Source: Lyophyllum atratum
Lineage: Eukaryota > Basidiomycota > Agaricomycetes > Agaricales > Lyophyllaceae
Direction of reading: 5' to 3'
Assembly (NCBI GenBank): GCA_014905825.1
Contig: JACGCN010000001.1
Coordinates: 248,001 to 312,000, forward strand
DNA: 64,000 nt
The number at the start of each line of letters is the position of its first letter. The stretch's first letter is position 1. The notes below the pieces were generated by a model. It saw only the letters and a list, made by a program, of their open reading frames with translations, did no database searches and was not told the origin of the DNA. The translations under genes were made by a program, and so were the position numbers. Below are positions 37,867 through 59,318 of the stretch, piece after piece.

Positions 37867-40800
37867 ATGGCACCAACCGTCTTCAAACAAGATGAACTCC
37901 AGGACCTTGCAAACGTCGACAGACAGTTGTTTACCCATTTCGGGCTCGGAGAAGCCGTCGAGCAACCTTTCGAATGCGTCCACCATGCCTTCGAACACCA
38001 TGCCAGTCAGCACCCCTACACCTTCGCTGTCGAAGACTTCGAGCACAAAATTGCCTATGTCGAGCTCAATAGGCAGGCTAACTGCCTCGCCACTCATCTC
38101 CGTTCCAAGGGTATCGGTCCCGGCTTCCGCGTTTGTCTCCTGGTCGAGCGCTCCATCTTGATGGTGGTTGGTATTCTCGGCGTCCTCAAAGCAGGCGCTG
38201 CATATGTTCCCCTAGATGGGAACGTCGTGGCAGACAAGACTCTCAACCACGCCCTTAAGGACTCGGGCTCGTCCCTTGTCCTCGTTCAGCGCAAATTCAT
38301 CGATCGCGTCGGCGAAACCCCCATCATGTGTCTTGAGGACACCATCTGCGACTCTCCTTACTCCACTCACTGTGTCAAGCCTCAGGACTTGTCCACACGC
38401 ACGGACAGTGCCTACATTATCTATACAAGCGGTACGTTTCTTACCATCATCCTATCACATCATTCGCTAAACATCGAGATATTACAGGCACCACTGGTGT
38501 TCCCAAAGGTGTCGACGTAATGCACAAGAATGTAACTAATCGTGAGTTCCTTCGCAATTTATCTCATATGATCATGCCAACAACTTCCTCAAGTGGTTTG
38601 CATGGAACCGGGAAACTTGAAGATGGGACATGGCGTCAAAGTCTCCCAGCTTATGAACATTTCGTTCGACATGGCTGCTTGGGTATGTTTTCTTCTCTTC
38701 ATTACATCTTGAGCCCAATTCTCAAGCTTTCTGACTTGTTTAGGAAATCCTCGGAAGCATGTGCAATGGTGCTACGCTCTGCCTCCGTGGCAAGACCTCC
38801 AAGGAATGGCGCGCGGTAATGAAGACCGTCGACGTCGTGGTGGCGACGCCGTCCATGCTTGCCCCGCACAAACCCGAAGACTATCCCAACATCAAAGTCG
38901 TCGCCGTTGCTGGTGAACCCTGTCCCAAGGGTGAGTCTCCCGTCGAGCCAAACAGCCGTGGTAGGATACTCATATCTCCGATTAGCTCTCGCCGACAACT
39001 GGGCAAAGCAAGCCGCTTTCTACAACTGCTGCGGACCCACTGAGGTATGTTCACTCTCTTAGCAATATATCTCATCTAAGGAACCTCGCTAGATTACCAT
39101 CGTAAACACAATGCATCTCCACAAGCCCGGCAAGGTCCTCGGCATCGGAGGTCCTACCCCCAACAACACTGTTTACGTCTTGGACAAGGATGCGAAGCCC
39201 GTGCGCATTGGTGAGATGGGTATTATGTGGGCTGGAGGTTCCGGAATCACGCGTGGATACTTGAACCTCCCTGACAAGACGGCCGAGAAGTATAAGCGCG
39301 ATCCGTTCCTCGACGATGGGTCGATGATGTTTAATACTGGCGACTTAGGGTACGCAAGAACCCTGTCTTCGATGTCCACAAACCTGACGAGTTTTCAACA
39401 GTCGCTGGCTACCTGATGGTGATTTGGAGCATCTGGGACGCGTTGATCACCAGGTCAAAGTCAAGGGATTCCGAGTTGAGCTCGATGGTGTTGCTGCAGC
39501 GATGGAGGTACGTCAAGTTCTTGAAAGTCATCCCTCCTGTCACTTATCAGATTCCCCAAGACCACTCCTGGAGTGAAAGTGGCAACTGCCATCCTGATCA
39601 AGGGCGAGCTGTGGGGATTCTTCGCCCCATCCAACGTCTCAGTGGAGGATGTCAAGGCGGCCACCGCCCGCGTCCAGCCTCATTATGCCGTTCCTACCAA
39701 ATACGTCAGCTTGGATGACTTCCCGAAGACATCGTGAGTCTAGCGACCCTGCCATTTGAGACGCAGAAACTAAGTTGTTTGTAGTAACGGCAAGTCGGAC
39801 AAGCGGGCACTCGAAAAGATTGCTCTGGAATCGGGCGAAGGAGCAGCCACTGCACCCGTCAAGAGGGCCTTCAAACAGGACCTACTGAAGGATCTCTCAG
39901 ATACCGACAAGGACTTGTTCAACAAGTTCGGTCTAGGAGAAGACATCAAGCCTGCTTTCGAATGTGTTCATCAAGCCTTCGAGCATCACGCCCGTGCACA
40001 TCCGGATACTATCGCTGTTGAGGATTTCGGGCACAAGATCACATTCGCTGAGCTCGACCGCCAGTCGAATTGTCTCGCCACCCGCCTTCGTGAGAGTGGA
40101 GTCGTACCTGGCTCTCGCGTCTGCCTCCTCGTCGAACGCTCCATCCTGATGGTTGTCGGCATCCTCGCCGTCCTCAAAGCCGGTGGCGCGTACGTTCCCC
40201 TCGATGGGAATGTCGTCGCTGACAAGACCCTCAACCACGCATTGAAGGATTCTGGATCCTCTCTCGTTCTCGTACAGCGCAAGTTCGTCCACCGAGTTGG
40301 CACAATGCCGATCTTCTGCCTCGAGGACTCCATCTGCGGCTCGCCCCAGAACCTCCATTGCCAGAGACCTCAGGATCTCGCCAAGACCACCGACAGCGCC
40401 TACATCATCTATACGAGCGGCACCACTGGCGTCCCTAAGGGTGTTGATGTCATGCACAAGAACGTTACCAATCGTAAGTCCGCCTGCATTTTAATTTGGA
40501 AGGCGCGTCCTGATGAATCCGAAAGTCGTTTGCATGGCACCTGGGAACCTAAAGATGGGTCATGGTGTTCGCGTCTCACAGCTGATGAATATCTCGTTCG
40601 ACATGGCGGCCTGGGTTCGTGATCTCATGACTTTGACCGTTCCCGTTGCTTACTTGTGACTTCTTTAGGAAATCCTGGGAAGCATGTGCAACGGCAGCAC
40701 GCTCTGCCTCCGTGGAAAGACGTCCAAGGAGTGGCGCGCGGTAATGAAGACCGTTGACGTTGTCGTCGCGACGCCGTCGATGCTTGCTCCCCATAAACCT

Positions 40801-57557: not shown

Positions 57558-59318
57558 ATGGCAAGCGTCATCCTTGGTCTAACAGTGTTCCAGGACCCCA
57601 GTATCAAGGATGAGAAGGGTACTATCAATCCACCCACCAGCAATGCACCAATGTCGATACCATCCCGCAATGCCACGCTGGTTAACATTCCGCTCGAAAA
57701 GCAGGTTGAACCCTCCGCCCTCGAAGGCCAGACTTCCATCTGGGCTGGGTACGAGCAGGACGTCCTCCCTCCGAAAGAGCATTCACGATGGCTGCGAAAT
57801 CTCCGGCATCAGATATTCTACCTCTACCGACGCCTGTTTGGTATCGTCTTCGTAATTAATCTAGGGATCTTGATCTCTGTTGCAGCCAACTTCAAAAACG
57901 TCAATGCAGCATACATCGGGAAGATTGTGGTCGGAAATCTTTTTGGGGCCATCATGATGCGGCAAGACTACGTTATCGATGCCTTCTTCGTTGTTTGCAC
58001 CTCCATTCCTCCAAGCTGGCCTCTTTGGATTCGCAGAATTGCCGCACGAGTATACCACATCGGCGGCTTGCATTCGGGAGCCGGAGCGTCGGGCACCATG
58101 TGGCTTATCTTGTTTGCGGTCAAGGCCACTATAGAAGTGGCGCAGGGACACGGGGTAAGCTCAAAGAAAGCTTAGAAACGAAGGCAACTAAGCATCTAAT
58201 ATAACAGACTTCCGGTTCAACACTGGTCGTGACCTATGTCATCCTCATCCTCCTACTCATGATTCTCATCTTCGCACACCCTCGGCTACGCCAAAAGTTC
58301 CATGATAGCTTCGAAGCCACACATCGTTTCCTCGGATGGAGTGCCACCGGTCTTGTATGGATTCAGGTCAGGCAACCATCTGTTTAGTCCTGGCGGCCTT
58401 ACTAACGCCCCTACCAGATCGTCCTTCTGACCAACGACTATCGCGGAGAGCAAAGCCTGAATAATGCGTTACTACATTCTGCGCCCCTCTGGTTGATCTT
58501 CGTGGCGACTCGTGAGTACCTAATACGTCGGCATGCACCGTATGCTGATCCTATATTGCCCAGTTTCCTTGATACTTCCTTGGATTAGGCTGAAGAAAGT
58601 ACCTGTACGTTGCGAAAAGCTCTCGAATCACGCTGTACGGATGTACTTCGACTACGGTACGCCTGCTCTTGGGCAGTCTTCCAGGATCATTTCTCACGCC
58701 ATCGAACAGCCACGCCTGGCTCAGGAAGCTTTGTCCGCTTATCCGACGCTCCCCTCACAGAATGGCACGGTTTCGCCACCATGCCCGAGCCTGGTAAAAC
58801 TGGCTTCTCCCTGGTTGTTAGCAGAGCTGGAGACTGGACGACAAAGATGATTGCGAAGCCACCAACACACATATGGAAACGCGGAATTCCGACGTACGGA
58901 GTGATGAAAATCGCGCCGATGTTCCGCAGGCTCGTCGTCGTTGCGACTGGCTCAGGAATTGGGCCTTGTACAGCGGCCATTATGGAGAAAAAAATTCCCA
59001 TGCTTGTCCTCTGGACGGCTCCTAATGTTCGGGAGACGTTCGGCGACAAGCTTGTCGATTCCATTATCGAGGCCAATCCCGACGCAGTCATATATAGTCC
59101 GTGTCCTTGCTTGATCTTTCAGACTCATCGCCTGATCTTGCTTTTCAGATACTCGACAGCATGGAAAACCTGACATGGTCAAGCTCACGTATCGCCTGGT
59201 GAAAGAGTTCAATGCTGAAGCAGTGGTCATCATCTCCAACCAGACCCTGACCGAAAAGGTCGTGTACGGAATGATGAGCCGAGGCATTCCTGCGTTCGGC
59301 GCCATCTGGGATTCATAA
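57558..59318 (+). CDS. TmpA-like membrane flavoprotein (solo copy C)
   Basis: Third paralogue, without adenylation domains. Six exons (57558-58154, 58208-58366, 58418-58511, 58564-58656, 58710-59096, 59149-59318) give 499 residues. It starts with a short linker, then EPSALEGQTSIWAGYEQD, six or seven hydrophobic segments, VYHIGGLHSG, THRFLGWSATG, the FAD-type GSGSFVRLSD block and the NAD(P) loop ATGSGIGPC. From exon 2 on, exon lengths (159, 94, 93, 387, 170) equal those of copies A and B, but intron sequences do not match. This is the layout of Aspergillus nidulans TmpA, a membrane flavoprotein affecting conidiation. ATG 57509 upstream would need an extra intron of about 40 bases and a different N-terminus; 57558 is the simpler start. 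Confidence 0.88.

Follow-up and report, generated by a model that had tools for sequence, protein, structure and literature searches.

How a protein with two adenylation (A) domains, no carrier domain and a redox unit in the membrane would work is the question raised by a stretch of the Lyophyllum atratum genome (contig JACGCN010000001.1, positions 248,001 to 312,000). This stretch of 64,000 nucleotides is hereafter the window, in whose coordinates positions are given. An earlier note on this DNA had described three paralogous genes on the plus strand, two of which (copies A and B) fuse two A domains to a multi-pass membrane plus FAD/NAD(P) half, while the third (copy C) is that half alone. 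The reading we prefer, tentatively and as slightly more apt to fail than to hold, is that each fusion is one protein in which two loaders of the non-ribosomal peptide synthetase (NRPS) type would serve the same substrate, without a carrier, beside a reductase of NADPH-oxidase (NOX) fold equipped with flavin adenine dinucleotide (FAD) and one heme.

Gene models could be built for all three copies (Table 1), and two of them match deposited L. atratum proteins exactly: copy A is FPV67DRAFT_6540 (P0001; 100% over 1575 residues) and copy C is FPV67DRAFT_1662467 (P0121; 100% over 499 residues). The models uphold the three paralogues and the description of copy C as the membrane half by itself, with no A domain, as well as the limits given for the group, 37867..59318, which run from the start codon of A to the last stop base of C. 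Every intron is of the GT-AG type and 48-61 bp long; the first exon and first intron of copy C were placed by hand, the rest of it coming from spliced alignment. The reading frames of A, B and C are likewise intact on contig C84, the second haplotype, with protein identities of 99.1, 99.2 and 99.4%, respectively, the last over 464 of 499 residues, the first 35 lying outside.

Copies A and B are very likely one gene each, because single exons bridge both the A1/A2 and the A2/membrane junctions, and a gene-fusion artefact was rejected on the same ground. The view that A1 and A2 plus the membrane half are adjacent separate genes can draw on P0009, the copy B protein as deposited (1112 residues), whose first two codons are the last two of exon 9 and from which the first 437 residues of the copy, most of A1, are missing (window 49178-50914), and on some homologues that look mis-fused (P0002, P0011/P0012). 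Set against the exons that cross both junctions, a frame open in both haplotypes and the same domain order in deposited proteins of other species, it is scarcely credible.

Table 1. Features of the three paralogous genes, in window coordinates
Feature	Position	Strand	Content and basis
Copy A, double-A TmpL/NPS12-type gene	37867..43702 (stop included)	+	22 exons, 1575 residues; hand splicing and spliced alignment
Copy A, A1 with N-terminal extension	37867..39815 (to the end of NGKSDKRALE)	+	Seven motifs; Pfam AMP-binding
Copy A, exon 9	39785..40473	+	End of A1 (A10 motif) and first part of A2 in one exon
Copy A, A2	39816..41796	+	Seven motifs; best Pfam stretch at protein residues 562-895
Copy A, exon 17	41766..42540	+	Bridges A10 motif of A2, linker and initial membrane helices
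Copy A, membrane plus FAD/NAD(P) half, TmpA-type	42076..43699	+	Homology; fold by reference to the model of copy C
Likely gene-conversion tract	42091..43431 in A; partner ~53474-54815 in B (estimated)	+	1341 columns, 92% identity including introns
Copy B, double-A TmpL/NPS12-type gene	49178..55088 (stop included)	+	25 exons, 1549 residues; spliced alignment
Copy B, A1	49178..51223	+	Seven motifs
Copy B, exon 11	51193..51884	+	End of A1 (A10 motif) and first part of A2 in one exon
Copy B, A2	51224..53260	+	Seven motifs
Copy B, exon 20	53230..53923	+	Bridges A10 motif of A2, linker and initial membrane helices
Copy B, membrane plus FAD/NAD(P) half	53459..55085	+	Spliced alignment; comparison with copy A
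Copy C, solo TmpA-type half	57509..59318 (stop included)	+	499 residues; 100% to P0121

Two A domains are present in each fusion, as had been claimed. Pfam and the motifs agree on this in copy A (P0001), with two AMP-binding stretches, and in copy B the call was made from the spliced alignment to copy A and the motifs, the Pfam scan having covered the truncated P0009 and not the full model. A PDB search, with alignments to LgrA, matches A1 of copy A to the A domains of NRPS enzymes, and all seven motifs tested, the A10 lysine included, are kept in the four A domains of copies A and B. Across the ten double-A proteins described below, the motifs are complete in 14 of the 20 domains; in the other six (TfuA_A1, TfuA_A2, BzoA_A1, SpaA_A1, ApaX_A2 and ApaY_A1) the gaps accompany shortened models or an insert. 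Both A1 and A2 are under constraint in copies A and B. The absence of a visible carrier likewise stands: no carrier or condensation family was found by Pfam at E<=0.01 in P0001 or P0009, and a carrier-like motif pattern had 0 matches in P0001-P0007, so that a carrier domain concealed in the linkers could be rejected.

The pocket regions of A1 and A2 are identical at 89 of 93 positions in copy A and at 83 of 93 in copy B, as compared by motif anchors and not by residue-wise alignment to PheA; anchor rows that were misplaced or empty were left out (e.g. HmaB_A2, ApaX_A2, ApaY and several distant single-A rows). The motifs around the amino-acid contacts given for TmpB (PMC4804170) are alike in all four A domains. 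These shared contact motifs and near-identical pocket regions suggest that A1 and A2 take one and the same alpha-amino acid.

Trees of the A domains bring all double-A domains into one clade (99 in the Shimodaira–Hasegawa-like approximate likelihood ratio test; 100/98 in a second tree), within which the A1 domains (93; 98/97) and the A2 domains (87; 95/92) separate as two clades. A single in-frame duplication accounts for all of them. It copied genomic DNA with its introns, because 7 of the 10 intron positions found in the A domains recur in A1 and in A2 of either copy as well as in a single-A paralogue. The separateness of the two clades, with synonymous change near saturation, and the fact that two A domains are the usual route to two substrates would favour a protein whose A1 and A2 activate different amino acids, the adenylates being joined or co-processed into a carrier-free dipeptide or diketopiperazine-like product. 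It is very unlikely in the face of such similar pockets and of a P0001 in which Pfam finds neither a condensation nor a carrier domain at the same threshold. The doubling could also be non-adaptive, one A domain being enough and the redundant second being held by folding or dosage constraint. Such a view, which we regard as quite unlikely, would fit the common motifs and pockets and the persistence of the single-A paralogue in the same genome, but both domains have been kept in seven species since one duplication, and both are constrained.

The structure model of copy C has six membrane helices, an FAD barrel and an NAD(P) domain, and Foldseek comparisons of this model predict a NADPH-oxidase fold, with a six-helix domain and an FNR-like dehydrogenase fold. 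The membrane half and the NADPH oxidases (SpNOX, NOX2) have a FAD-loop motif in common, and the GSGIGP columns are kept in 212-237 of 237 aligned homologous halves, TmpA itself lying outside the alignment. The half differs from the NADPH oxidases in its low identity (13%) and in keeping one of their two heme-histidine pairs, the second being absent, by sequence position, from the 237 aligned proteins. A single bis-histidine heme is predicted, held by H172 and H238 of copy C. Pfam entry PF26733 is assigned to the membrane half in homologue listings. Since a NOX-type fold is predicted, direct hydride reduction of an acyl-AMP, proposed in the earlier note beside its transfer to a small molecule, appears less likely, although not impossible.

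In the reading that we prefer, the twin A domains would both activate one and the same amino acid to aminoacyl-AMP, their doubling would raise its local output, and the linker from A2 to the membrane (about 93 residues in copy A and 66 in copy B) may let the A domains reach the reductase. NADPH would supply electrons, which FAD and one heme would hand on either to the activated product or to its partner in the membrane, and an oxidation of the amino acid, as proposed for TmpB, would fit as well as a reduction. The solo protein C would offer this redox unit by itself, with no activating domain attached.

A number of points weigh against this reading. A hydropathy scan of copy C places only 3 segments over threshold, versus six helices in the model; the Foldseek scores are moderate (SpNOX: template modelling score 0.52 by query, root-mean-square deviation 7.9); and copy C stays below the cut-off of Pfam Ferric_reduct (10.1 bits versus 28). 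The heme is predicted from sequence and a cofactor-free model, the hidden Markov model stretch that places H238 on residue 209 of NOX2 is not significant alone (i-Evalue ~1e3), and H231 and H238 are equally invariant (236/237), so that the pairing could be H172-H231. The A4 motif reads DMAQW in A1 and DMAAW in A2 of Tephrocybe and Tricholoma furcatifolium, a difference of one position. The seven window pieces scanned hold no sign of a biosynthetic cluster except one sub-threshold GMC-oxidoreductase match, and the context thus gives no clue to the product.

The history of the reductase half is distinct from that of the A domains. Copies A and B are identical at 428/507 residues in A1 and 426/520 in A2, and at 447/455 in the membrane half, where synonymous divergence (dS) is 0.49 versus 2.4 (A1) and 4.1 (A2). 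Four introns of the membrane half, too, are close to or fully identical (46/48, 46/51, 54/54 and 48/55), whereas five position-paired A1 introns share 26-30 of 54-66 positions; the last intron, outside the tract, shares 27/57, and introns 6-8, paired by number at differing positions, were left out. Because the introns of that half are alike and those of A1 are not, selection alone was rejected for L. atratum as the cause of the likeness. The likely gene-conversion tract, which scores best, is present in both haplotypes. The two copies of Hypsizygus follow the same pattern (A1 412/505, A2 446/519, membrane half 449/455), as against 428/507, 427/519 and 369/455 between species (LatA with HmaA), and conversion is suggested there at the protein level. 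In Asterophora the near-identical part is A1 (228/234 over the part read). Exchange between copies is thus likely to recur, in two of the three species in the reductase half.

These results allow a more specific proposal, in which two near-identical loaders would feed a one-heme core homogenised by recurrent conversion and the electrons would go within the membrane to an aminoacyl-derived acceptor, not outside to oxygen or iron, because the outer heme would have been lost, the whole being a carrier-free redox machine for biosynthesis; it appears doubtful. The homogenised half could instead be the working end of the protein, in redox or reactive-oxygen signalling, with the A domains as an amino-acid or ATP sensor or gate tuned by doubling. 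That the reductase half is the near-identical part in L. atratum and Hypsizygus would agree with such a role, and so would the redox phenotypes of TmpL mutants (PMC2766074). Reductase halves without an A stretch are moreover common, 109 of 120 among the matches listed, and such proteins interleave with A-bearing ones in the membrane-half tree. Yet the seven motifs with the A10 lysine are kept in both A domains, beyond what a sensor would need, and the part near-identical between the Asterophora copies is A1; we hold the sensor role to be rather unlikely.

Homologue searches with copy A and with the A1-A2 part of copy B scored 7992 and 7995 candidates sharing most words and retained the best 120 of each, at lengths of 0.55-1.75 of the query, so that distant or split models may be missed. 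Two A stretches occur in 9 of the 120 proteins listed for copy A and one in the other 111, the truncated P0009 among the latter. With the rebuilt copy B, there are at least ten double-A proteins from at least seven species: L. atratum (A and B), Tephrocybe rancida, Hypsizygus marmoreus (two, from contigs of equal length), Tricholoma furcatifolium, Blastosporella zonata, Sphagnurus paluster and Asterophora parasitica (two); several of the ten are partial models. Among the 120 matches listed for the A1-A2 query, no other protein spans both domains. The NCBI taxonomy assigns L. atratum to Lyophyllaceae and T. furcatifolium to Tricholomataceae, both within Tricholomatineae. As one A-domain duplication is common to ten proteins of seven species, the doubling is not local to this site: of the in-place expansion proposed earlier, the three paralogues remain and the local origin of the double domain does not.

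The A-domain tree places the duplication that separated A from B before the Lyophyllum-Asterophora split, LatB_A2 grouping with ApaX_A2 (100/99) apart from the A-type A2 clade, where LatA and ApaY are found (100/100); it leaves the placement relative to Hypsizygus undecided. Copy C belongs to a clade (97) of seven solo rows (L. atratum, Tricholomella constricta, Tephrocybe rancida, T. furcatifolium, two from Sphagnurus paluster and one further protein) together with one partial Sphagnurus row; solo proteins thus occur in at least five named species, plus one further protein. The sister group of this clade consists of double-A membrane halves from five species (joint node 93), and both Hypsizygus membrane halves branch outside the two groups (99). 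The order of these events is unsure because gene conversion is at work; distant solo rows sit on long branches, and deeper placements are unsure too. The idea that copy C arose by recent truncation of one of its neighbours A and B was rejected, since it groups with the solo proteins of other species and the A-C dS is ~1.9.

Other members of the family complete this picture. An open single-A NPS12-type paralogue (P0049, 1030 residues) lies 38 kb beyond the window, at positions 349831-354323 of the same contig, and its counterpart in the second haplotype is cut short where contig C84 ends. Tricholomella constricta has solo and single-A proteins and no double-A protein among the matches listed, which may be a matter of annotation. 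P0002 is joined to a PIG-O/PIG-G part and P0011 and P0012 are listed with a SET domain, probably as annotation fusions.

TmpL of Alternaria brassicicola and Aspergillus fumigatus and TmpB of A. nidulans are described with one A domain and 989-1025 residues (PMC2766074, PMC4804170). Copies A and B resemble them in a carrier-less NRPS-type A domain, six membrane helices (in TmpL) and the FAD/NAD(P) half, and differ in bearing two A domains on 1549-1575 residues; TmpL and TmpB come, moreover, from ascomycetes. Group 1 of NPS12/ChNPS12 (Bushley and Turgeon, PMC2823734) likewise combines an A domain with a following ferric-reductase-type membrane domain, is described with a single A domain, and belongs to proteins over-represented in basidiomycetes. 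The difference in architecture announced for the fusions is thus real with respect to both TmpL and NPS12 group 1. Copies A and B have the N-terminal NRPS-type A domain, the TmpA-type half and the lack of thiolation and condensation domains that mark the TmpL/NPS12 type of class IV adenylate-forming reductases, but two A domains each where the described members have exactly one. For TmpB, a hydrophobic amino acid is proposed to be activated and then oxidised by the oxidoreductase domain (PMC4804170). A link between TmpL and NOX is not wholly new, as PMC2766074 already calls TmpL distantly ferric-reductase-like and places NADPH oxidases in that group; the word heme has 0 occurrences in the text available of PMC2766074 and PMC4804170, where no statement on a heme in TmpL or TmpB was found.

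Copy C, a half without an A domain, is a TmpA-type solo oxidoreductase, of the same type as TmpA of A. nidulans and the solo NPS12-type halves; its clade differs in adjoining the double-A membrane halves, apart from most other Agaricomycetes solo proteins sampled. Among basidiomycetes, class IV adenylate-forming reductases of Coprinopsis cinerea were reportedly described by Brandenburger et al. in 2016, two of the enzymes accepting L-Ala, L-Val and L-Ser. A homologous single-A protein of C. cinerea (P0082), which may or may not be one of these two enzymes, has a UniRef name beginning 'Adenylate-formi'; it differs from the copies here in its one A domain and in reading DFAAW and NACGPTE versus DMAAW and NCCGPTE.

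Tandem adenylation-type domains without a carrier, also born of domain duplication, are known from DIP2/CPS1 (PMC9342972), which shows by analogy that such pairs can work. They differ in being of the fatty-acid FAAL-like type, with a degenerate second domain, and the architecture as published includes no reductase; Basidiomycota, according to that paper, lack the didomain. The DMAP1-binding domain that accompanies two FAAL-like domains in that family was not found here in the Pfam scan.

The double-A form is a variant architecture, already among public proteins and kept in seven species, and no description of a double-A TmpL was found in the open-licence literature searched, as far as its available text goes. 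What is new here is that both A domains keep seven intact motifs and near-identical pocket regions, that A and B diverge in their A domains but have a homogenised reductase half, and that this half is modelled with a NADPH-oxidase fold in which one of two heme-histidine pairs is conserved. The twin-A form offers a natural experiment, in which a once-duplicated domain with intact motifs stands beside solo and single-A paralogues in one genome. The one-heme NOX-fold prediction would turn the vague label 'ferric reductase-like' into a testable cofactor claim for the whole family.

Between copies A and B, a plus-strand reading frame (44543-46300) looks by eye like an F-box protein, its piece 44543-45592 having no Pfam match at E<=0.01, and between B and C lies a small gene (55330-56170) whose product, again judged by eye, resembles a hexapeptide-repeat protein of the dynactin-subunit kind. 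Elsewhere in the window, the GMC-oxidoreductase-like exon is at 14860-15504 (19.8 bits versus a Pfam cut-off of 23), exons of an SNF2-related helicase are at 8882-10502 (E 5.5e-9 and 4e-9), and an exon of an SH3-domain protein is at 5427-6335 (E 4.3e-9).

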